Part shown: piece by piece, positions 7,775 through 37,239 of the stretch
How positions within the stretch are numbered: position 1 is the stretch's first letter
How the letters are laid out: every line of letters starts with the position of its first letter
Source: a virus
Virus record (IMG/VR): IMGVR_UViG_3300038701_000842
Coordinates: 1 to 42,136 of that record
DNA: 42,136 nucleotides
Reading direction: 5' to 3' (one strand)
Notes under the pieces: generated by a model
What the model saw: only the letters and a program-made list of their open reading frames with translations
What the model was told of the DNA's origin: nothing
The model's database searches: none
Position numbers and translations under genes: made by a program

Positions 7775-10700
7775 ATGGCACTCTCATACATCAACTACCC
7801 GGCTGATGGCTCGACGACCCAGTTCGACATCACCTTCGGATACCTTCGGCGAACCCATGTGTTCGTCTTCGTGGACAACTCCCTCGTCGGGTTCAAGTGG
7901 ATCAGCTCCACCCGCATCGAGATTTCACCGGCCCCACCACTGGAGGCCGAGGTCCGCATCCAGCGACTGACCGACAAGGTCAACCGCATCACCGACTTCG
8001 CAGACGGCCAGACGCTCCTCGCGGGCGACCTCGACGCTGCGACCCTCCAGAACTTCTACCTCGCGCAGGAGATGCTGGACGGGATCACCGATGGCGTCCT
8101 TCAGGGCGACGTGGTCCTGAACCAGCCTCTGGTCGGCGGGGAGCCCCTGACCATTCAGGAGGTCCAAAGCATCCTCAACGAGGCCGCCCGGAACTCCCCA
8201 GTCGTCCAGCAGCTCCTCGGTGACGTCAGCGGGAATACCCAGAGCATCCTCACGGAGACGCAGGATCGCCTTGCTTCCGTCACTGCCGAGACACAGGCCC
8301 GCATCGCGGCTATCGCGGCAGAGGCCCAGTCCCGTCAGGATGCCCTCAGCGCTGAGGCGCAGGCGCGTCTGGACGCCCTCAACGCCCTGCAGGCCCAGAT
8401 CGACGCCGATGTGGCTAGCCTCGCGGTAACCTCGGCTGCCCTGACGCAGGAGATCGCCGACCGCATCAGCGCCGTGGATGGCGTTGCTGCCGGGCTCTCT
8501 CAAGAGGTCACCGACCGCATCAGCGCCGTGGATGGCGTTGCTGCTGGGCTCTCTCAGGAGATCACCGACCGGGCTACAGCTGTTCAGGCGAACGCTGACG
8601 CCCTCGCACAAGAGGCTCTCGACCGCCAAGGCGGCGATCAGGCTCTGGACACTCGGATCGACGCCGTGGTGGCCACAGTGGACGGCAACTCCGCCCTGAT
8701 CGCCTCTGAGCAGACTGCTCGCATCTCCGGGGACAACGCCCTCGCGAGCCAGATCAGTGTCGTGCAGGCTGCCACGGACGGCAACGCCGCCCAGATCGCA
8801 GCGGAGCAGACTGCTCGCATCAACGCCGATACCTCCTTCGCGACGAGCCTCACGGCCCTGACGACCCGGATGGGTGACGCTGAGGCTGAGCTGATCTCCG
8901 TGAACGAGGCTGTGTCCACCGAAACGTCTGCCCGGGTCACGGCCATCAACGGCCTACAGACCAGCCTCAACGCGAACTCGGCGCTGATCGCCTCGAACTC
9001 CACGGCCATCTCCGACGAGACCTCGGCCCGGGCTTCGGCTGTCGCGGCCCTGCAGGCGCTAGTGGACGACAACGCGTCTGCCATCACGACTGAGCAATCG
9101 GTCAGGGCGAGCGCCGACAGCGCCTTCACGCTCCAGATGTCGGCCCTTACGGCCCGCGTAGGCGACAACGAGGCCGGTCTGGTCTCCGTCAACGAGGCTG
9201 TGGCGACCGAAAGCTCTGCCCGTGCGACCGCCATCAGCGGCCTGCAGACGCAGATCGACGGGAACTTCGCCTCCATCGCTGCCAACGCTACCGCGATCTC
9301 TGATGAGACCGGTGCCCGCGTGTCCGCCATCAGCGCCATACAGACGCAGGTGGATGACAACGAGGCTGCCATCACGGCAGAGGCCATGGCTCGCTCGGGT
9401 GCTGACAGTGCCTTCACGCTCTCCCTGAACGCCCTCACAGCGCGTGTAGGAGACAATGAGGCTGACATCATCACGGTCAACGAGGCGGTCTCTACGGAGT
9501 CCTCAGCCCGCGCTTCGGCTATCTCCGGTCTGCAGACGCAGGTGGATGATGCCAACGTCCTGATCGCCTCGAACCAGACGGCGATCTCTGATGAGGCCTC
9601 AGCACGGGCGTCCGACTTCAACGCACTCTCCGCCGAGATCACCCGTGTCGAAGAGACGCAGTCGGCGTTCAGTAAGCCGCTGACCTCCACCGCCGACCTC
9701 CACTCTGTTGGTGCCTCGGTGACCGTCGAGGACGGCGCAGGCGTCTTCGGCCAAGAGGGTATGGTAACCGTCCGCGAGGCGGCTGCTGTAGGTTATGACA
9801 CCACAGCCCAAACGAACGGTGCGTCTGTAGTCATTCCGACGAACATTGCACTGCAGTTCTCCGCTCGCCGGGTGCGCATCGCGGTCCTTGCGAAGGCATC
9901 CTCCGTTCAACCAGCAGCGGACTTCGTGGTCGCTTACTCGACATCGGACACAGGTAACAGCGGTGCGATGTACTCCGCGCTCACATACTCATGGGCGTGG
10001 CACACCTTCTACTATCAGGTTCCTGCCGCCTCTGCTGGCGGCACCGACTTCCTCGGCATCTTCTCCACCGGGTCGGATGGGGATGGCGTGGACGTGGCAC
10101 GCGTCATGATTGACGTAGCGGCAACGGCGGGGGACATCCCTGAGATCGCTCAGAACACAGCCGCGATCACCTCGGAGCAGACCGCTCGGGCTTCTGCAGA
10201 CAGCGCCATCGCCTCTGACGTCTCAGCCCTGACGACGCGCATGGGGGACGCCGAAGCGGACATCGTGTCCAACCAGACGGCTATCTCGAACGAGACGTCC
10301 GCACGGGCCTCAGCGGTGTCCGGCCTACAGACGCAGATCAACGGGAACGCCGCTGCGATCACCTCTGAGCAGACCGCCCGGTCAACGGCTGACAGCTCTC
10401 TTGCCTCCGACATCTCTGGACTGACAGCCCGAGTTGAGGACGCTGAGGCGGGTGTCATCTCGAACTCCACGGCCATCTCGGACGAGGAAACGGCTCGGGC
10501 AGCGTCTATTGACCTGCTGTACGCACGCTTCTCGGGAACGCGTCAAGACATGCTGGGGGCCGACCGGCGGATGTCTTCTGGACTCGATGGGCTTCCACAG
10601 GATGTTGGGAACCTGAACAGCACTTGGTACGAGGAGGAGACGGCTGACGGGCCGAAGGTGACCATCCCGGTCTCAAGTGCGCAACTCTCTCTGAAGGAGA

Positions 10701-16506: not shown

Positions 16507-16531
16507 TCCAAAACCCACTGTTATCGAGAGG
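16507..16531 (+). promoter_or_regulatory. Candidate phage RNA polymerase promoter, right-end copy
   Basis: Contains AAAACCCACTGTTATCGAG. Bases 16507-16530 are identical to 35246-35269, and the core recurs at 25600-25617. It lies just after the large terminase gene, the place of the T7 right-end promoter (phiOR) used in replication and packaging. Identity in three intergenic sites on one strand is strong evidence of function; assignment to the phage polymerase is inference. Confidence 0.72.
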
Positions 16532-16739: not shown

Positions 16740-16891
16740 TGGGTCTGCCTCCGTGGGTGGGGGAGGGGGATCGAAAATATGCTAGACAAACGAGCACCCT
16801 GATGATCGGAGACCGTCCGAGCCTTCCCCCCTTGGGGCCCTCCCGGATCGCCCAGAGCATGCCAGCGTCACGATGCCCGGCACCACATGCC

Positions 16892-16913
16892 CTAACCCAT
16901 TGATATCGTTAGG
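16892..16913 (+). promoter_or_regulatory. Palindromic promoter-like element
   Basis: CTAACCCATTGATATCGTTA shares AACCCATTG-ATATCG with the candidate phage promoters and is also bounded by the inverted arms CCTAAC (16891-16896) and GTTAGG (16908-16913). It may be a variant promoter, an operator, or both. Confidence 0.35.
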
Positions 16914-16958: not shown

Positions 16959-17283
16959 CCAGAGGCGACCAGAGGCAAGGCCGGTTTCATGGCCGCCCGG
17001 GCGAGCAATCGCCTATCGTTTTGCCATAGGCTGAGCCTATAGCTCCCTCGGTTCCCATAGGCTTTCCCTATAGCTCCAAAGGCCCCCCAAAGCCGCCCCG
17101 GCCAGAGGCTGACCAGAGGCTGCCCAGAGGCTGACCAGAGGCTGACCCAAGGCCAGCCCCTCGCGCGAGCCTTATATGGGGCGATCTCGAACCCGGCTCG
17201 AACCCGGCTCGAACCCTGCCCGGCTCGAACCCTGCCCGGACCAGAGGCTGGCCGGAGGCTGGCCGGAGGCTGGCCAGAGGCTC
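16959..17283 (+). repeat. Phased CCAGAGGCTG repeats, two clusters with 11-nt period
   Basis: Copies of CCAGAGGCTG (or CCGGAGGCTG) start at 17102, 17113, 17124 and 17135, and again at 17241, 17252, 17263 and 17274, exactly 11 nt apart in each cluster. Two shorter copies start at 16959 and 16969. Between clusters CTCGAACCC(G/T)G starts at 17186, 17197, 17208 and 17224. Spacing near one helical turn suggests a cooperative protein-binding array. Confidence 0.85.
17024..17077 (+). repeat. Two 31-bp repeats each forming a hairpin
   Basis: CCATAGGCT-NNN-CCTATAGCTCC occurs at 17024-17046 and 17055-17077. The first folds as ATAGGC-TGA-GCCTAT, the second as ATAGG-CTTTC-CCTAT. They extend the CCTATAG theme seen at 16.55-16.70 kb. 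Confidence 0.75.
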
Positions 17284-17416
17284 CATTTCCCCAGAACGTG
17301 CAACCTGGTACGCAATAATGATTCGCAACTAGCGCTTCCCAAGGCCGCGCAAGGCCCCTCATGCAAAAAAAGTTCGCCCCAAATCACTAGGCCAGCAAGG
17401 GCTGGACGCCTGTCGG

Positions 17417-17854: not shown

Positions 17855-18055
17855 ATGAAAATCCAGCTGACCGATTACAATCCGGGCGGTGTTTCAACCT
17901 TCATGATCAGCTCCGGGCCGATGACAATGTGGTTCGAGATGGAAAGCGAGACGGGGAAGCCAGCTAGCGTCATGCCGCTTGTCGAACCCTACGCCACGAA
18001 GGCCCATACAGAGGCTCGCATCCTCTTGAGCCAGCGCAACCGCCACAAGGGATGA
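17855..18055 (+). CDS. Early hypothetical protein 1
   Basis: A 66-residue protein beginning MKIQLTDYNPGG, with AAAGGGA seven bases before the start. It is the first gene after the terminal region, where T7 puts its anti-restriction and host-takeover genes. Predicted mixed alpha/beta with no motif I recognise; the net charge is near neutral, unlike the very acidic T7 Ocr. Its stop codon is the first base triplet of the repeated leader element. Confidence 0.7.
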   Translation: MKIQLTDYNPGGVSTFMISSGPMTMWFEMESETGKPASVMPLVEPYATKAHTEARILLSQRNRHKG

Positions 18056-18110
18056 TGCCCGGTGTCCTGTCCGGCCAGTCTGGACAGGCATCCCGGCACC
18101 ATGCCGACAA
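18053..18110 (+). promoter_or_regulatory. Early spacer RNA element, copy 1
   Basis: Outer stem GATGC (18054-18058) with GCATC (18088-18092); inner stem CTGTCC (18067-18072) with GGACAG (18082-18087); loop GGCCAGTCT (18073-18081); then a second hairpin CGGCA-CCA-TGCCG (18094-18106). Copies 2 and 3 have C-G where this has T-A in the inner stem, a compensatory change. Begins at the upstream stop codon; a ribosome site follows. Likely an RNase III-type processing site or translational control element. Confidence 0.75.
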
Positions 18111-18133
18111 CCGCGAACACAAAGGGAAACACC

Positions 18134-18397: not shown

Positions 18398-19192
18398 ATG
18401 CCGAACCTGATCGACCTTCGCTCTATCCGCCGTGCTGACAGCAAGCCTGCCCGTGGCGTCGTCTTCTATCGCGGGCCGTCCATGATTGACGGCGAGCCTA
18501 TCGTTGCCGTGGCACTGTTCGGCTCTCGCAACACTAAGACCGGGAACATGGTGCAGACTTACATCATTCGCGATGACATGGCACCGGTGGATGCTATCCG
18601 CTCCGGTGCCGACAGCACGGTGTGCGGAAGCTGCACACATCGCGGCAAGCGTGATCCTGAGACTGGTGCGCTGATACCCGGCACCCGGACCTGCTACGTT
18701 GTCATCGGACAGGGTCCGACGGGTGTCTGGAAAGGCCTTCAGGCTGGCCAGTACCCGGCGATGAACGCACGCGGCCTATTCGCTGGCAAGTTTGTCCGCC
18801 TTGGTACCTATGGCGACCCTGCCGCGGTCCCGTTTGAAGTCTGGGAAGGCATGCTGGAAGGTACCACGGGGCACAATGGATACACGCACCAAGGGGCTGA
18901 CTGCGATAGCCGCTTTGCATCGCTCTGTATGGCCAGTGCCGACAGTGAGCTGGACCGTGAGCATGCCAAGGCCTTGGGATACCGAACCTTCCGGGTTCGC
19001 CCTGACACGGCCAAGCTCAGGGGCGAGTTCGTCTGCCCGGCCAGTCAAGAGGCGGGCGCTAAGCTGCAGTGCGCCGCTTGCAAGGCCTGTGGCGGCACCA
19101 GCTCGAAGGCCAAGGCGGACGTTACAATCACCATCCATGGTGGTTCTGCAGTCATGGCCAACGCCAAACGCCGCGACATGCTCGCCGCGTGA
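18398..19192 (+). CDS. Early cysteine-rich conserved phage protein
   Basis: A 264-residue protein, the largest early gene, with GGAG before ATG 18398. Cysteine pairs CGSCTHR (about residue 75), RTCYVVIGQGP (about 97), CDS...LC (about 170) and CAACKACGG (about 228) suggest one or two metal sites. The segment TVCGSCTHRG...TCYVVIGQGPTGVWKG is a pattern found in uncharacterised phage and plasmid proteins. Role unknown; host takeover is possible from its early position. The stop codon opens copy 2 of the early leader element. Confidence 0.75.
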   Translation: MPNLIDLRSIRRADSKPARGVVFYRGPSMIDGEPIVAVALFGSRNTKTGNMVQTYIIRDDMAPVDAIRSGADSTVCGSCTHRGKRDPETGALIPGTRTCYVVIGQGPTGVWKGLQAGQYPAMNARGLFAGKFVRLGTYGDPAAVPFEVWEGMLEGTTGHNGYTHQGADCDSRFASLCMASADSELDREHAKALGYRTFRVRPDTAKLRGEFVCPASQEAGAKLQCAACKACGGTSSKAKADVTITIHGGSAVMANAKRRDMLAA

Positions 19193-19248
19193 TGCTCGGT
19201 GACCTGCCCGGCCAGTCTGGGCAGGCATCCCGGCACCATGCCGACAAC
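19190..19248 (+). promoter_or_regulatory. Early spacer RNA element, copy 2
   Basis: Outer stem GATGC (19191-19195) with GCATC (19225-19229); inner stem CCTGCCC (19203-19209) with GGGCAGG (19219-19225); invariant loop GGCCAGTCT (19210-19218); second hairpin CGGCA-CCA-TGCCG (19231-19243). Identical to copy 3 and different from copy 1 at four bases, two of which compensate each other in the stem. Confidence 0.78.
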
Positions 19249-19271
19249 CTCGAACATAAAGGGAAAACACC

Positions 19272-19601
19272 ATGATCCGCACCATCGATACCACGATTGC
19301 ACGCCCCGGCCTGAGCGGCGACGCCGCCACGTCCGAAACCTTCGCCATGATTGTGAAGGGGTTCCGGGGGCCCAAGCGTATCACCGCCGAGGTGACCCAA
19401 TGGGGTGAAGAGGTATTCGTCACGCAGCGCTCCGGCATGCTCAAGGACAGCTACACGGAAGCTGACCGCGTAGAGCAAGACCGGCTGAACACGGAAGACC
19501 CTGTCAAGGATGGCGACGTCATTAGCGTCAATGGCACGACCTATCGAGTCGCGGTCAAGGGCGACTACTCGGACCCCGCTGCGCTGATCGCTGAGGGGTG
19601 A
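19272..19601 (+). CDS. Early hypothetical protein 3
   Basis: A 109-residue acidic protein with AAAGGGAAAA before ATG 19272. Contains MIVKGFRGPKRITAEVTQWG and ends ALIAEG. Predicted beta-rich in the middle and at the end (GDVISVNGTTYRVAV looks like a small beta-barrel strand pair). No family recognised. Its stop begins copy 3 of the leader element, so it is flanked by two identical copies. Confidence 0.7.
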   Translation: MIRTIDTTIARPGLSGDAATSETFAMIVKGFRGPKRITAEVTQWGEEVFVTQRSGMLKDSYTEADRVEQDRLNTEDPVKDGDVISVNGTTYRVAVKGDYSDPAALIAEG

Positions 19602-19657
19602 TGCTCGGTGACCTGCCCGGCCAGTCTGGGCAGGCATCCCGGCACCATGCCGACAAC
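19599..19657 (+). promoter_or_regulatory. Early spacer RNA element, copy 3
   Basis: Same two-hairpin element as at 19190, starting at the stop codon of the previous gene, with inner stem CCTGCCC (19612-19618), loop GGCCAGTCT (19619-19627) and GGGCAGG (19628-19634). It precedes an AAGGAG ribosome site and a very short open frame. Confidence 0.78.
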
Positions 19658-19673
19658 CCGCACACAAGGAGAA

Positions 19674-19730
19674 ATGAACATGACCATGACCACACGCCTT
19701 GCAAGCGCCAAGCGGGAGGGCAAGCGATGA
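19674..19730 (+). CDS. Very short open frame, possible leader peptide
   Basis: Eighteen codons (MNMTMTTRLASAKREGKR) with a perfect AAGGAG just upstream, overlapping the next gene by ATGA. It carries the best ribosome site in the area, which suggests it is translated and couples translation of the following gene. A functional peptide cannot be claimed. Confidence 0.4.
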   Translation: MNMTMTTRLASAKREGKR

Positions 19731-21249: not shown

Positions 21250-21354
21250 TGACCCTCAACCCTCCTCAGTTCTTAGGTGCCCGCAAGGCCAAGGCCTTCC
21301 ACAATCGGAGCAAGATGAAATGTCAAAGACCGCCGCACTCCGGACCGTGAGCCG
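21250..21354 (+). CDS. Possible small open frame before the MarR-like gene
   Basis: Thirty-four codons beginning MTLNPPQFLGARKAKAFHNR, overlapping the start of the MarR-like gene by about 30 bases in another frame. The basic, KxK-rich sequence is plausible, but the ribosome site is weak (GAGAG). It may be a leader that couples translation, or chance. The end is approximate. Confidence 0.22.
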
Positions 21355-21704
21355 CATCGTGCAGGAGTTCCGCGTTATCGAGCCGGACATGCCTGCCAAC
21401 TATGTCGCCATTGTCCTCTTCGTCGCCAAGTTCATCGAGGACAACCACGAAGACCCATCAATTGGGGACATATCCAACGGGCTTGGGATCACCCGGCCCT
21501 CGGTGTCCCGCGCTGCCTTGGCGCTATCCTCTCGCCGCCTCGGGGGTTCCCGTGCGACCGAGGAGAGACCAGCCGGGGGGGCGCAAGGCTCTCGGCCTTC
21601 TGGAGCGAGAGGCCGACTTCAGAGACCTGCGGCTCACCCGCTGCCGCCTGTCTACCAAGGGTTCCGCCCTCATTTCCCGCATCATTGACCTGACGAAAGG
21701 ATAG
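21320..21704 (+). pseudogene. MarR-like winged-helix regulator interrupted by a +1 G in a G7 tract
   Basis: Residues 1 to about 85 read in the first frame: SRIVQEFRVIEPDMPANYVAI, then the recognition-helix region SIGDISNGLGITRPSVSRA. After G7 (21575-21581) that frame degenerates, while another frame supplies the typical MarR wing and C-terminus, GRKALGLLEREADFRDLRL then STKGSALISRI. Removing one G joins the two cleanly (PAGGRKALGLL), giving about 127 residues ending at the TAG 21702-21704, three bases before the integrase start. GGAG precedes ATG 21320. It is either a sequencing or assembly error, a real phase-variable or slipped gene, or a decayed lysogeny regulator. Confidence 0.72.
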
Positions 21705-21707
21705 ACC

Positions 21708-22787
21708 ATGGCTATACGCCGCCGAGGAGACGGCCTGCAGATCGACGTGCAGGTGACCGTGGACGGCCAGACCGTCCGCCACCGCGAAAAGTGCATCGCC
21801 GAGATGCCACAGGCGAGGGCACGTGAGGCCGCCATCCGGGCCGCCCTGCTCGCCGGGGATGATCCGGGTACGCCCGGAGGCCGATCAGCTGGCTCTTCCC
21901 TGACCCTCAAGGACGCTCTGGAGCTGACGTGGGAGAAGTACTGGGCGCATGCCGCCATCGCGCGGACTGTCCGGTCGAACATGAAGACCGCTCTCGAGTT
22001 CTTCGGGGACGACATGCCTGTGGCCCAGATCGACACCCAAGACGCAGACAGGTACGTCGCTCACCTCACGAAGGCCGGGCTGTCGCCCTCTACGATCAGG
22101 TCCAAGTGCGCCTGTATGACGAAGATGTTCAGCTACCTGCACCGCAGGGGCACCGTGAACCGGAAGCCCTACTTCGAGATGCCCAAGCCCAACGACAACA
22201 CGCGGGACAGGGTCATCAGCTTCGAGGAGGAGGCGGAGCTACTGCGCCTGTTCGCTGAGGCCTACGACGAGGCCCTTCCGCGCCGCTCTGACGGCCACAC
22301 AGGGCAGGATTGGGCCGACCTTGTGTCTTTCCTCATGGATACCGGATGCCGCCCCAGCGAGGCCCGTAGGCTTAGCAGCAGGTGCATGCGGGGGACGCTG
22401 GTGGACTTCAAGATCACGAAGACCAACAAGCCCCGCACCATCCCCCTGACCGACAGGGCTGCCGAAGCCTTGGCCCGCCAGATCGAGCGCCACGGCGAGG
22501 AGCCATTCGCATGGGCTACCACCGGGGCCTTCCGCCACGCTTGGGACTGGGCACGGGGCTCGATGAGCAAGTCGGATGACGCCGGTTTCATCCCCTACGC
22601 CCTGCGCCACACATGCGCCACCCGGCTGTACGACCGGACGCGTGACCTGCTGATCGTCCAGCGGTGGCTCGGGCACACGGACATCAAGATGACCCTGCGG
22701 TACGCCAAGCTGCAGCCCGATGACCTTGAGCGCGCCCGCGACCTGCTGCAAGGGGGCAGCACTGCGAAGCTGAGGGTGGTAACCTGA
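21708..22787 (+). CDS. int: Tyrosine-family site-specific integrase
   Basis: A 359-residue recombinase. An N-terminal arm-binding-like domain (to about residue 65) is followed by a SAM-like core-binding domain (LTLKDALELTWEKYW to about 160) and the catalytic domain with Arg in TGCRPSEARRL (about 213), Lys in TKTNKPRTIPL, HxxR in YALRHTCATRLY (about 302), His in LGHTDIKMTLRYAKL and the nucleophilic Tyr in the same segment. It would integrate the circular genome at the adjacent tRNA-Leu. AAAGG precedes the start; the gene follows the MarR-like gene directly. Confidence 0.95.
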   Translation: MAIRRRGDGLQIDVQVTVDGQTVRHREKCIAEMPQARAREAAIRAALLAGDDPGTPGGRSAGSSLTLKDALELTWEKYWAHAAIARTVRSNMKTALEFFGDDMPVAQIDTQDADRYVAHLTKAGLSPSTIRSKCACMTKMFSYLHRRGTVNRKPYFEMPKPNDNTRDRVISFEEEAELLRLFAEAYDEALPRRSDGHTGQDWADLVSFLMDTGCRPSEARRLSSRCMRGTLVDFKITKTNKPRTIPLTDRAAEALARQIERHGEEPFAWATTGAFRHAWDWARGSMSKSDDAGFIPYALRHTCATRLYDRTRDLLIVQRWLGHTDIKMTLRYAKLQPDDLERARDLLQGGSTAKLRVVT

Positions 22788-22810
22788 TGAAGTAGAAGGC
22801 ATCCTTGGGC

Positions 22811-22861
22811 GTGACGCGGCGGTGACGCGGTGTCGCGACCTGTGACGCGAAGGGACGTCAC
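22811..22861. promoter_or_regulatory. Integrase arm-type sites, left cluster
   Basis: GTGACGCG at 22811-22818, 22822-22829 and 22842-22849, plus an inverted GTGACG (CGTCAC at 22856-22861). The 22842 copy sits in CTGTGACGCGAAG, which recurs at 23010-23022 on the other side of the tRNA. Confidence 0.6.
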
Positions 22862-22868
22862 GAGACGC

Positions 22869-22955
22869 GCGGCTGTGGTGGAACTGGTAGACACGCAAGG
22901 CTTAGAACCTTGTTTTCCTTGGAAAGTGGGGGTTCGAGCCCCTCCAGCCGCACCA
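22869..22955 (+). tRNA. tRNA-Leu (anticodon TAG), complete with CCA
   Basis: Acceptor GCGGCTG (22869-22875) pairs with CAGCCGC (22945-22951), then A and CCA. D-arm GTGGAACTGGTAGACAC, anticodon stem CAAGG/CCTTG with loop CTTAGAA giving anticodon TAG (22903-22905), a long variable arm as required for Leu, and T-loop GGTTCGAGCC. All helices pair. It reads CTA-type codons. Since it sits beside the integrase, it is likely the phage copy of the host target gene, kept full-length so that integration restores an intact tRNA. Confidence 0.95.
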
Positions 22956-23011
22956 ATACCCCTTGCATTTAGGTTCCATTCACCTATCTAAGCGACCTCG
23001 AACACAATCCT

Positions 23012-23019
23012 GTGACGCG
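23012..23019. promoter_or_regulatory. Integrase arm-type site, right side
   Basis: GTGACGCG within CTGTGACGCGAAG, identical over 13 bases to 22840-22852 left of the tRNA. Lies immediately before the terminator stem. Confidence 0.55.
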
Positions 23020-23022
23020 AAG

Positions 23023-23052
23023 CCCCCGAGCCTAGTTTGGCCGGGGGTTTCT
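23023..23052 (+). terminator. Strong intrinsic terminator between tRNA-Leu/attP and RNA polymerase
   Basis: CCCCCG (23023-23028), bulged A, GCC (23030-23032), loop TAGTTT, GGC (23039-23041), CGGGGG (23042-23047) and TTTCT (23048-23052). It would stop transcripts coming from the integrase/tRNA side before the RNA polymerase gene. Confidence 0.8.
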
Positions 23053-23106
23053 ACGCCGGGGACGTGTGCGAGCCTGTACCTAACTCAGAAACTGCATGAA
23101 AAGGAC

Positions 23107-23120
23107 GTGACGCGTGACGC
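23107..23120. promoter_or_regulatory. GTGACGCG repeat overlapping the RNA polymerase start
   Basis: GTGACGCG at 23107-23114 and GTGACGC at 23114-23120 overlap by one base and cover the GTG start codon of the polymerase gene. If these are integrase arm sites, integrase binding could hinder RNAP expression. Coding constraint alone could also explain part of the match. Confidence 0.4.
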
Positions 23121-25585
23121 TCAACCTCAACATCATCGACTTCACAGACGAACAGCTTCGCCGGGAACTGGAACACGAGCAGGACATGATCGACACCGGC
23201 ATAGCCACGGTGCGGAACCGGCAGGAAGGCGAACGGGACCGGGGTAACGCCGGGGCGCTGGCCGGTGGCCGGGTTCTCATGTCCCGGATGTCCGGCACGC
23301 TGGCCGAGCGGATCATCGAAGAGATCGCCCGCCTCGAAGACGGCCGGGTGAAGCGCAAGCCGCCAGAGCTTCGCACCCTCAAGCTCCTCCCGGCGAAAGA
23401 TGCGGCGGTCCTCGCGATCCGCTCGGTGACCAACGTCCTCGCTCAGTACAAGAACGACCTCTGCACCACGCAGCGCCTTGGCTTCTGCATCGGCAATGAG
23501 ATCGAGGGCGAGTACCTCGCTCGTCTGTTCCGCAAGAACGACCGGGGCCTGTTCGACCGCGTGATCCGCAACGTGAACGAACGCTCGAAGAACCCGGAGC
23601 AGCGTCGCAAGGAAATCGTCGAGGCATACGAGCGCATCAGCGATGACGACGCCGCACGCCTGACGAACACCGACAAGGTACGCCTAGGAACCTTCCTGCT
23701 GGCCCAGATCGAGGATATGGGGGTCGTATCCTCCTCGACCATCGTGAAGGGCAAGAAAGCGTCCAAGGTGTTCGAGCTGACCGAGACGGCCATGAACATC
23801 ATGACCAAGGCAGACGAGATGGCGGCGGAGATGCAGCCGCACCTGTACCCCACGCTGATCCAGCCCCGCCCTTGGACGACGCTACGCTCTGGCGGCTACT
23901 GGCTCCCCTTCAAGCGGGGCGGGCAGATGGTTGTGGCCCGGACGAAGACCAACGGCATCCGCAAGGCCACCGAGGAGGAGATGCCACACATGTTCCGCCC
24001 GGTGAACTACCTGCAGAACACCCCCTTCCGCGTCAACTCGAAGGTTCTCGCGGTGGTCGAGCGTATGCGTGAGACCGGCATCACCTGCGGTAGCCTGCCC
24101 AAGATGATCCTCGAAAACGTACCAGCCAAGCCGCACGACATCGAGACGAACGAGGATGCCCGCAAGGTGTGGAGCCGCGCTGCCCGAGAGGTCCACACCC
24201 GCAACGCCACAGCGAAGGGTAAGATACTGTCCGTGGACAAGACCATTCGGCTGGCTGCAGGCCTCCGCAACGAGGAGCACATCTACTTCCCGAAGGTCGT
24301 GGACTTCCGGGGGCGTGTGTACGACTGCCCGTCCTTCCTGAAGCCGCAGGGCGACGACCTGTCCAAGGGTCTCTTGGAGTTCGCCAGCGGCAAGGTCGTA
24401 GGCGAGGACGGGGCCTACTGGCTGGCTGTCCACGGTGCGAACGTCTGGGGCGAGGACAAGTGCAGCCTCGACGAGCGGGTCCGCTGGGTAGAGGCAAACG
24501 AGGAGCGCATCCGCCGTACCGCCGACGAGCCGTTCTCGGATCGCTGGTGGATGGACGCGGACAAGCCCTTCCAGTTCCTGTCCTTCTGCTTCGACTGGGC
24601 TGGCTTCTGCCAGAACGGCTTCGACCACGTCAGCCACACGCCTGTCGCCATGGACGGCTCGTGCAACGGCCTACAGCACCTCTCCGCCATGCTGCGGGAC
24701 AGCGTGGGCGGTGCAGCTGTGAACCTGCTACCTGCCGACAAACCGCAGGACATCTACACGCAGGTCATGACGAAGGTGGTGGCCGTGCTCGGAGAGCGGG
24801 CCGCTGCCGGTGAGCCTACGGCACAGAAGTGGCTGCCGCTGATGAAGCGCTCGGTAGTCAAGCGTCCGGTCATGACGCTGCCCTACGGGGCCACGAAGAC
24901 GGGCTTCGCCGACCAGATCATGGAGGACACCATCCGTCCCCTTGAGAAGGAAGGGAAGAGCCCGTTCAAGTCAGAGCCCTACAAGGCCGCCCAGTACCTC
25001 GGGAAGCTCGTCTGGGAGGCCACCGGCCAGACCGTGATCGCAGCTCGTGCCGCCATGGACTGGCTGCAGGAGGTAGCGAAGATCGTGGCCAAGGCCAACC
25101 AGCCCATCGAGTGGACCACGCCGTCAGGCTTCACCGTGAAGCAGGACTACCGGAAGGCGGTCAGCCGCAAAGTCGAGCTGTTCGCAGCGGGGCAGCGGGT
25201 CACGCTCTACGTCGCAGAGGGGCACGAGGACAAGATCGACTGCGCCAAGATGGCACTCGCTATTGCCCCGAACTTCGTACACGCCATGGACGCGGCGCAC
25301 ATGCTCCGCACGGTGGAACTCCTGCTCGACGTCGTCGGGCCTGATGTCCATCTGTCCATGGTTCACGACAGCTACGGATGCCACGCCGCTGACGCTGAGG
25401 CGCTGGCCTTCGCTATCCGACAGGCCTTCGTGCAGATGTACCAAGAGCAGGACTGGCTGGAGGCATTCCGCGAGGAGGTCGCCGCCCAGCTGCCCGAGGA
25501 GATCGCCCAGACCCTGCCACCTGTGCCGGGGCACGGTGACCTGAACATCTCCGAAACGCTTAACTCTTTGTACTTCTTCGCATAA
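23114..25585 (+). CDS. Single-subunit DNA-directed RNA polymerase, T7 gp1-like
   Basis: An 823-residue polymerase (T7 has 883) that would transcribe middle and late genes. Motifs: DFRGRVYDCPSFLKPQGDD (about residue 397), motif A with catalytic Asp in MDGSCNGLQHLSAMLRD (about 514), motif B RPVMTLPYGATKTGF (about 585), motif C SMVHDSYG (about 752) and the hydrophobic C-terminus ending FFA, as T7 ends FAFA. GTG 23114 is chosen for AAAGGA 8-10 bases upstream; no ATG is nearby. A promoter-like element follows the gene. Confidence 0.96.
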   Translation: MTLNLNIIDFTDEQLRRELEHEQDMIDTGIATVRNRQEGERDRGNAGALAGGRVLMSRMSGTLAERIIEEIARLEDGRVKRKPPELRTLKLLPAKDAAVLAIRSVTNVLAQYKNDLCTTQRLGFCIGNEIEGEYLARLFRKNDRGLFDRVIRNVNERSKNPEQRRKEIVEAYERISDDDAARLTNTDKVRLGTFLLAQIEDMGVVSSSTIVKGKKASKVFELTETAMNIMTKADEMAAEMQPHLYPTLIQPRPWTTLRSGGYWLPFKRGGQMVVARTKTNGIRKATEEEMPHMFRPVNYLQNTPFRVNSKVLAVVERMRETGITCGSLPKMILENVPAKPHDIETNEDARKVWSRAAREVHTRNATAKGKILSVDKTIRLAAGLRNEEHIYFPKVVDFRGRVYDCPSFLKPQGDDLSKGLLEFASGKVVGEDGAYWLAVHGANVWGEDKCSLDERVRWVEANEERIRRTADEPFSDRWWMDADKPFQFLSFCFDWAGFCQNGFDHVSHTPVAMDGSCNGLQHLSAMLRDSVGGAAVNLLPADKPQDIYTQVMTKVVAVLGERAAAGEPTAQKWLPLMKRSVVKRPVMTLPYGATKTGFADQIMEDTIRPLEKEGKSPFKSEPYKAAQYLGKLVWEATGQTVIAARAAMDWLQEVAKIVAKANQPIEWTTPSGFTVKQDYRKAVSRKVELFAAGQRVTLYVAEGHEDKIDCAKMALAIAPNFVHAMDAAHMLRTVELLLDVVGPDVHLSMVHDSYGCHAADAEALAFAIRQAFVQMYQEQDWLEAFREEVAAQLPEEIAQTLPPVPGHGDLNISETLNSLYFFA

Positions 25586-25598
25586 ACGGCGTCTCCCC

Positions 25599-25620
25599 TC
25601 AAAACCCACTGTTATCGGAA
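25599..25620 (+). promoter_or_regulatory. Candidate phage RNA polymerase promoter, middle genes
   Basis: CAAAACCCACTGTTATCG (25600-25617) followed by GAAG; the same core as the copies at 16507 and 35246, with change only in the last few bases. Placed right after the RNA polymerase gene and before the DNA-metabolism genes, as T7 class II promoters are. Confidence 0.72.
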
Positions 25621-35245: not shown

Positions 35246-35269
35246 TCCAAAACCCACTGTTATCGAGAG
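35246..35269 (+). promoter_or_regulatory. Candidate phage RNA polymerase promoter, late genes
   Basis: Contains AAAACCCACTGTTATCGAG and is identical over 24 bases to 16507-16530. Lies in the 32-base gap between the last DNA-metabolism gene and the first morphogenesis gene, so it would drive late transcription. Confidence 0.75.
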
Positions 35270-35664: not shown

Positions 35665-37239
35665 ATGGCCCAGACAGCGCAAGCACAGTACGACAAGTGG
35701 ACGGGGACCCGGCAGCAGTACCTGTCCCGGGCTCACGAGTGTTCCAAGCTGACCATCCCCACGCTCGTCCCTCTGGAGAGCGAACAGACCCAGCGGAACC
35801 TCGACGTCCAGATCGAGCAGCCATGGCAGTCCATTGGTTCGACCGGCGTCAACACGCTGGCAGCCAAGATGCTGCTGACCCTGCTCCCACCGAACAGCCC
35901 GTTCTTCAAGCTGAACATGGGCCGCAAGGAACGCCAAGAGCTTCTACAGCTCGCAGGCCCAGAGGCCGAAGCCTTCAAGGCTGAGATCGAGGCGGCTCTC
36001 CAGACCATCGAACAGGAGACCGTCAAGCAGATCGAGCGGACCCCGATGCGAACGGTCCTGTTCTCGGTGATCAAGCACCTCCTCGTAGCGGGCAACTGCC
36101 TCCTGTACATCGGCGAGAAGCCCCGAGCTTTCCCCATGTACCGCTACGTCACCCGGCGCGATGCCGCAGGCAACATGCTGAAGACCATCGTCAAGGAAGT
36201 CGTGGACAAGAAGACCCTTCCTGCCAAGACAATCGCGGAAGCGATCAAGGCCGGGAAGCTGAAGGACGACGACAGCGAGGAAGAGGTCACGATCTACACC
36301 GTGATCGAACGCACTCGCGGCGACACATGGACCTCGTATCAGGAGGTCTTCGGAATGGAAGTACCCGGCACCCGGGGCATCTACCAGACCGAGGCGCTCC
36401 CTTGGGTCTCCCTTCGGATGATCGTCGTTGACGGTGAAGACTATGGCCGCTCCTACGTCGAAGAACTGTACGGCGACCTCCTGTCTGCCAACGACCTGAC
36501 CAAGGCCATCGTCCAAGGTGGCATGATCTCCTCCAAGCTCCTCTGGCTGGTGAACCCGAATGGGCTCACTGACGAGGACGACCTCATGAACGCCTCCAAT
36601 GGTGACTTCGTGGCCGGTCGTCAGGACGACGTGGCGGCCCTACAGGCTGCCAAGGGCGGAGACTTCGCGCAGGCCGAACGTGTCCTGATGGCTATCGTGG
36701 ATCGCCTGACGCGCTCCTTCCTGATGACCTCCTCGGTCCAGCGAAGCGGCGAGCGTGTTACGGCGTTCGAGATACAGACGATGACGCAGGAGATCGAGGA
36801 CACCCTTGGTGGCTACTACTCGATCCTCTCGCAGGAACTCCAGATGCCTATCGCCAAGCGGTTCATGGCCATGCTGGAGCGGCGGGGCGAACTGCCCAAG
36901 CTGCCCACAGGCTCCGTTGAGCCCATGGTGGTCACCGGCATCGACGCCCTTGGCCGTGGTCAAGACCTGACCCGCCTCCGGGGCTTCATCGCCGACCTCA
37001 TGAACGCGGCACAAGCCAAGCCACAGGTGGTCGAGCGTATCGACGACAGTGAGCTGATCCAGCGTCTGGCGAACGGCCATGGCGTGGACACCGCAGGTCT
37101 CATCAAGACAGACGAGCAGATCGCTCAAGAACAGCAACAAGCACAGCAGGCTGCCATGATGCAGGAGATGATGTCTAAGGGCGCAGGCCCTGCCATCTCC
37201 GCAATGGGTCAGGTAGCCGCGAAAGGTATGCAAGCATGA
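35665..37239 (+). CDS. Head-tail connector (portal) protein, gp8-like
   Basis: A 524-residue protein (T7 gp8 is 536). Begins AQAQYDKWTGTRQQYLSRAHECSKLTIP, the usual start of this family, followed by PWQSIGSTGVNTLAAKMLLTLLPPNSPFF. The C-terminus is Gln-rich (EQIAQEQQQAQQAAMMQEMM). Twelve copies would form the DNA channel at the capsid vertex. The stop overlaps the scaffold start (ATGA). Confidence 0.95.
   Translation: MAQTAQAQYDKWTGTRQQYLSRAHECSKLTIPTLVPLESEQTQRNLDVQIEQPWQSIGSTGVNTLAAKMLLTLLPPNSPFFKLNMGRKERQELLQLAGPEAEAFKAEIEAALQTIEQETVKQIERTPMRTVLFSVIKHLLVAGNCLLYIGEKPRAFPMYRYVTRRDAAGNMLKTIVKEVVDKKTLPAKTIAEAIKAGKLKDDDSEEEVTIYTVIERTRGDTWTSYQEVFGMEVPGTRGIYQTEALPWVSLRMIVVDGEDYGRSYVEELYGDLLSANDLTKAIVQGGMISSKLLWLVNPNGLTDEDDLMNASNGDFVAGRQDDVAALQAAKGGDFAQAERVLMAIVDRLTRSFLMTSSVQRSGERVTAFEIQTMTQEIEDTLGGYYSILSQELQMPIAKRFMAMLERRGELPKLPTGSVEPMVVTGIDALGRGQDLTRLRGFIADLMNAAQAKPQVVERIDDSELIQRLANGHGVDTAGLIKTDEQIAQEQQQAQQAAMMQEMMSKGAGPAISAMGQVAAKGMQA

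Follow-up and report, generated by a model that had tools for sequence, protein, structure and literature searches.

How temperate T7-like phages silence a self-amplifying T7-type polymerase cascade in their lysogens is unsettled, the published idea being repression by a MarR-like protein. The question is raised by a metagenome virus contig of 42,136 bp (positions 1-42,136 of IMG/VR record IMGVR_UViG_3300038701_000842; this whole stretch is referred to below as the window), in which a tRNA-Leu(UAG) gene and a proposed phage attachment site (attP) lie between the gene for a tyrosine integrase and that for a T7-type single-subunit RNA polymerase (RNAP). A preliminary description of this DNA had proposed that integration at this site would in itself shut down the cascade, by cutting RNAP off from the early promoters. 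Comparison with related phages and prophages points to a more composite arrangement: the window phage likely uses a layered switch, in which separation of RNAP by integration, insulation by a terminator and repression by a MarR-like protein are combined with tRNA-dependent lysogeny.

Separation of RNAP from integrase in prophages

In the window, a MarR-like regulator gene (21320-21704), the integrase gene (21708-22787; PF00589, 1.3e-18; phrog_1, 3e-50), the tRNA-Leu(UAG) gene (22869-22955), a terminator-like hairpin and the RNAP gene (23114-25585; PF00940, 6.5e-111; phrog_414, 4e-246) follow one another on the + strand, with tRNA, attachment core and terminator packed between integrase and RNAP in about 330 bp. 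The same gene order is found in the relatives L002, L003, L004, L005 and L114. Since integrase, attachment region and RNAP are contiguous, the window represents the unintegrated form of the phage. The record also looks circularly permuted, because homologues of its last genes sit directly before those of its first genes in the related contig L175.

The integrated form was sought by scanning one genome per species for related RNAPs, which gave 40 loci, 24 of them on contigs at least about 60 kb long. At none of these 24 does a related integrase lie just upstream of RNAP. That arrangement is confined to six contigs no longer than 46 kb (L114, L120, L122, L125, L140 and L149), as expected for free phage genomes. 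Instead, 13 prophages from 12 genomes carry the integrase gene on the same strand as RNAP but 34-44 kb downstream of it, and a same-strand split of 39 kb is present in G338, which was found in an extra genome search. RNAP adjoins host DNA in these 14 chromosomal T7-like prophages, and the expectation that attL and attR part integrase from RNAP is borne out. Two loci were not counted: L137, with the integrase gene on the opposite strand, and L132, a probable decayed T7-like prophage, in which a tRNA-Leu 5' half lies 228 nt before RNAP and the integrase gene about 6 kb past it, and in whose flank DNA polymerase was not found. A related expectation, that RNAP would lose upstream phage transcription, needs qualifying. 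In the relatives RNAP is indeed split off from the early region and the upstream promoters, but it is not left promoterless, the host tRNA-Leu promoter now standing in front of it.

A T7-like phage with integrase beside RNAP was also observed in an isolate assembly of Chelatococcus sambhunathii, where it makes up a phage-sized contig of its own (L174-L176, G026 contig C17, 40302 bp) whose ends carry no exact repeats; the phage may here be excised or extrachromosomal.

Probable attachment core and replacement of the host tRNA

The junctions of seven prophages (L117, L119, L127, L129, L145, L147 and G338) indicate where recombination takes place. In each, the host tRNA-Leu gene is interrupted at its anticodon, with the 5' half next to RNAP and the 3' half at the integrase end, where it is accompanied by a whole phage tRNA-Leu with the same anticodon. 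Rejoining the flanks in silico restored a tRNA-Leu in all seven cases (UAA in five, UAG in one and CAA in one). There is no tRNA gene at the RNAP-end junction of these prophages, and the host tRNA is rebuilt at neither junction, a defining trait of tRNA-dependent lysogeny that is thus seen in relatives rather than in a lysogen of the window phage itself. In five of the seven genomes, a pattern search allowing up to 2 mismatches returned no UAA-type matches other than the interrupted host gene and the copy carried by the phage. A simple search for direct repeats failed to detect the attachment sites of several prophages because the cores are short, and tRNA-half patterns succeeded. Three other loci (L118, L123 and L131) are built in the ordinary way, with a 3'-half repeat of 50-60 bp and, at the RNAP end, a complete tRNA.

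In the window, the preliminary description had placed the crossover within the phage tRNA. This location is rejected because the anticodon loop of that tRNA, CTTAGAA, offers no usable overlap to the usual host loop, TTTAGGT, because a 12-bp match to host tRNA lies just downstream, and because the cores of the relatives lie outside the phage tRNA. The match in question, ATTTAGGTTCCA (22967-22978, + strand), recurs without mismatch as the anticodon-loop region of tRNA-Leu(UAG) in the host genomes of Aminobacter anthyllidis and Pseudomonas putida; the 9-mer TTTAGGTTC within it occurs once in the 42-kb window and never arose when the 158-bp leader was shuffled 5000 times. The attachment core is therefore probably located here, 3' of the phage tRNA. 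Its positional equivalents are likewise anticodon-loop sequence in L002, L003, L004, L034, L114 and L122, and the anticodon of the core is that of the phage's own tRNA throughout: UAG in the window, L003, L004, L034 and the annotated Autographiviridae phage Lo5R7ANS, CAA in L002, and UAA in L114 and L122. The same agreement was recognised by eye in LUZ100 (L183, about 3916), with ACTTAAAA beside a tRNA-Leu UAA, and in HTVC019P (L185, about 4716), with GGATTTGCAATCC and a tRNA-Cys GCA (8946-9019), which suggests tRNA-dependent lysogeny in these phages too. P-SSP7 and L005 carry a tRNA 5' half instead of a short anticodon-loop core.

Tandem and dispersed copies of GTGACGC surround the core of the window: three direct repeats GTGACGC(G) on the integrase side (22811-22849), one on the RNAP side (23012-23019), and a tandem GTGACGC GTGACGC (23107-23120) that overlaps the RNAP start codon and recurs identically at the RNAP start of L002, all on the + strand. 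Six copies in 335 bp compare with at most four of any 7-mer in 500 shuffles, and the repeats may represent arm-type sites of the integrase. Repeats also flank the core on both sides in L114, L117, L119 and Lo5R7ANS, and no shared 7-mer does so in L005, LUZ100, HTVC019P, P-SSP7 or L129.

As defined in mycobacteriophages, tRNA-dependent lysogeny involves a core of about 10 bp, a broken host tRNA and a required phage tRNA of the same isotype (PMC10865867). On sequence grounds the window would belong to this class: attP and the host tRNA-Leu(UAG) genes share a short common core, and beside this UAG core lies a complete tRNA-Leu(tag), predicted by ARAGORN with an encoded CCA, which agrees with the target in isotype and anticodon and would replace the host tRNA. 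The likeness to mycobacteriophages such as Fionnbharth (PMC10865867) extends to the tyrosine integrase, the arm-type repeats and a host tRNA that is not rebuilt. Unlike the Fionnbharth type, the phage considered here, known from sequence alone, is T7-like and would use tRNA-Leu, and the same event would also part RNAP from upstream promoters. Also comparable are two Lo5R7ANS-like prophages, in Sinorhizobium meliloti AK21 and RU11/001, in which tRNA-Leu(UAG) was reported to be inactivated by mid-gene insertion and replaced by a phage tRNA-Leu(UAG) (PMC11476347); they share the break and the replacement, and the passages of that report consulted are silent on RNAP position, insulation and any switch.

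Putative promoters, putative terminator and other features of the window

Of the one-strand order given in the preliminary description, the part from the MarR-like gene to RNAP was verified by family profiles, tRNA scan and hairpin prediction, and attP within the tRNA and host-type early promoters at about 16.7 kb were not. No sigma-70-like site reaching the threshold of 9/12 is present within 16.4-26.5 kb, and the proposed promoters were rejected, the region offering just two TTGACA boxes inside a 35-nt repeat.

A different candidate is an 18-nt motif, CAAAACCCACTGTTATCG, with exact copies on the + strand at 16509-16526, 25600-25617 and 35248-35265 and a variant with 4 mismatches, also on the + strand, at 16891-16908. 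Its 15-nt core has five matches at up to 3 mismatches against 0.5 expected, and from its resemblance to a T7-type RNAP promoter set it is probably a promoter of the phage RNAP. The first copy comes after terminase and before the early region, where integration would cut it off from RNAP; the second is just 3' of RNAP, before the middle genes; and the third precedes the head-tail connector gene (35665-37239, PF12236). A similar motif lies just after RNAP in L002, at 8938, and the motif is barely conserved among the relatives. A motif search found no copy between tRNA-Leu and RNAP in the window, and a phage promoter in the RNAP leader was rejected on this ground. Given this absence between core and RNAP, RNAP in a lysogen would lose both early transcripts and the upstream promoters through which it feeds back on itself.

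What integration would place before RNAP is the host tRNA-Leu promoter with the 5' half of the tRNA gene, so that silence requires a terminator at this point or another block. A hairpin (23022-23047) followed by a T-tract, together spanning 23022-23055 on the + strand, has the form of an intrinsic terminator with a predicted dG of -18.7 kcal/mol, a strength reached by none of 30 shuffles. A hairpin 30-55 nt past the core is also strong relative to shuffles in L003, P-SSP7, L117, L129 and L148, evident in G338 and moderate in L116, and LUZ100 has an annotated terminator, T4, between core and RNAP. Folding predictions make it plausible that this recurrent hairpin acts as an insulator against the host tRNA promoter. 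There is a precedent in Tn916, where a terminator near one end has been shown experimentally to shield the element, once integrated, from host promoters; after excision the genes behind it are expressed, for which antitermination is needed (PMC11658703). Tn916 is, however, a conjugative element with a defined antiterminator, and none was identified in the window.

Further genes of T7 type in the window, recognised by family profiles, encode a gp2.5-like single-stranded DNA-binding protein, a primase-helicase, DNA polymerase A, the connector and terminase. Judged by gene content, the window appears to derive from a temperate T7-like (Autographiviridae-type) phage, albeit one with a frameshifted MarR-like regulator. 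Past terminase, a 1.4-kb stretch without clear genes contains two clusters of 11-bp repeats of the CCAGAGGCTGA type (17084-17293), near the expected location of the genome ends. An element of 77 nt, with 79-92% identity between copies, precedes three early genes (18053-18129, 19190-19266 and 19599-19675) and is perhaps a shared leader or translation signal.

A proposed layered switch and its alternatives

We propose that the integrase of the unintegrated, temperate T7-like phage carries out recombination between the core (22967-22978) and the anticodon loop of a host tRNA-Leu(UAG) gene. The host gene would be broken, its promoter and 5' half coming to lie beside RNAP and its 3' half beyond the integrase gene, and the complete phage tRNA-Leu(UAG) beside the integrase gene would take over from it. 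RNAP would at the same time be detached from the early region, from the MarR-integrase pair and from the upstream phage promoters, and so be deprived of early transcripts and of its own feedback. The terminator at 23022-23055 would remain with RNAP and stop read-through from the host tRNA promoter, the MarR-like protein would repress leakage, and excision would reunite the early region with RNAP. By extension from the relatives, a lysogen of the window phage would share the split, the broken and replaced tRNA, the hairpin and the regulator, and its RNAP would be silent, each layer contributing some share.

The order of MarR-like regulator, integrase and T7-type RNAP, with a tRNA-related attachment site between integrase and RNAP, is shared with LUZ100, Pasto, HTVC019P, P-SSP7 and Lo5R7ANS. 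These phages differ from the window in details: the tRNA is on the opposite strand in LUZ100 and Pasto and represented by its 5' half only in P-SSP7, and the integrase-RNAP interval contains extra genes in Lo5R7ANS and Pasto. In Lo5R7ANS two genes annotated as tRNA splicing ligase (RtcB-like) are found between tRNA-Leu/core and RNAP (L187 5856-7051; NC_025431 8855-10050).

Several observations weigh against the layered switch. Neither 385 alphaproteobacterial genomes nor the order of G338 yielded a prophage close to the window, and only distant relatives are seen integrated: the RNAP of G338, the best-matching chromosomal relative from the extra genome search, is 37% identical to that of the window. 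The hairpin is weak, absent or near chance in L002, L004, L005, L114, L128, L145, L147 and HTVC019P. Where present, it would also oppose early transcription into RNAP in the free phage, which could turn RNAP on only through read-through, antitermination or a promoter not yet seen. In LUZ100 a phage promoter, phi1, has been mapped in the core-RNAP interval, where the window has no phage promoter motif. No promoter was identified for the phage tRNA of the window. Finally, the MarR-like gene of the window (+ strand; phrog_9665, E = 1.5e-7) runs in one frame over 21320-21688 with its tail in the frame ending at 21704, the frame changing near a G7 tract at about 21574-21580. This change may be an assembly error or a mutation that switches the gene off; the gene is in a single frame in L002, L003, L034 and L114, with weak matches to Pfam MarR_2.

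The alternative that survives best, although in our estimate it falls somewhat short of an even chance, is that MarR is the real switch and the position of attP incidental, the protein made from the MarR-integrase operon repressing RNAP expression. This is the published model for LUZ100 (PMC10134795), and it is in keeping with the MarR-like gene immediately 5' of integrase in 15 prophage ends, all those examined, albeit with weak Pfam matches. It also accommodates phi1 and T4 between integrase and RNAP in LUZ100, since the split alone would not remove the RNAP promoter of that phage. Yet RNAP is physically parted from integrase and the upstream region, and repeatedly so, and the window has neither a phage promoter motif before RNAP on which MarR could act nor an identified MarR operator.

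Integration might instead be transient or accidental, the phage being essentially lytic and its attachment and tRNA module serving no true lysogeny. The T7-like cyanophages P-SSP7 and S-TIP37 integrate at tRNA-Leu during lytic infection and yield no stable lysogens (PMC8776855), LUZ100 gave no lysogens either (PMC10134795), and the frameshift in the MarR-like gene would fit such a phage. We regard this explanation as improbable for the window: chromosomal T7-like prophages with a replaced host tRNA occur in isolate genomes, e.g. of Rhodopseudomonas palustris, Xanthobacter and Aminobacter, and a lone frameshift in a contig from a metagenome may have arisen during assembly.

The same cyanophages bear on the claim of the preliminary description that the architecture alone silences the prophage, the loss of upstream transcription sufficing and no strong repressor being needed. 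The geometry is verified in prophages, and the core-RNAP interval of the window revealed no phage-type promoter; nonetheless, we consider sufficiency very unlikely and do not retain that claim. RNAP sits behind the host tRNA-Leu promoter, the MarR-like gene is retained in the prophages examined, phi1 stands before RNAP in LUZ100, and a superinfecting phage would meet no resistance in a lysogen that made no trans-acting repressor. P-SSP7, with the same MarR-integrase-attachment site-RNAP order as the window, integrates without stable lysogeny; as integration in cyanophages may follow RNAP synthesis, this argues against the sufficiency of the architecture, not against its contribution. The architecture probably accounts for the off-switch only in part. 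It is just as doubtful that integrase helps to repress RNAP by binding arm-type sites at the RNAP-side junction and blocking initiation, because, suggestive as the tandem repeat over the RNAP start (conserved in L002) and the two-sided repeats of four further relatives are, integrase binding to them is inferred, the overlap may reflect compact packing only, and five of the phages and loci compared lack a shared flanking 7-mer.

The layered switch may have a further consequence, which we put forward tentatively, as a possibility rather than an expectation: a single recombination in the anticodon loop would take RNAP off its own promoters and feedback, put an insulated host tRNA promoter in front of it and make the host dependent on the prophage for an essential tRNA-Leu, so that off-state and retention would result from the same cut. 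Integration itself alters the regulatory state in the integration-dependent immunity of mycobacteriophages as well (mentioned in PMC10865867), but there attP is inside the repressor gene, whereas in the window it lies between integrase and RNAP. A coupling of tRNA-dependent lysogeny with separation of RNAP and an insulating terminator was not found in the literature consulted. A text search for the idea of the split gave no hit, though it may have been stated earlier.

For the silencing of the polymerase cascade in temperate T7-like phages, the prophage junctions add to MarR repression that integration itself detaches RNAP from the early region and sets a host tRNA promoter before it. The terminator, the MarR-like protein and the position of the core are specific, removable elements of the proposed switch. 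The tRNA genes of these phages, which in LUZ100 were read by its authors as a remnant of imprecise excision, are suggested to be replacement tRNAs needed for lysogeny.

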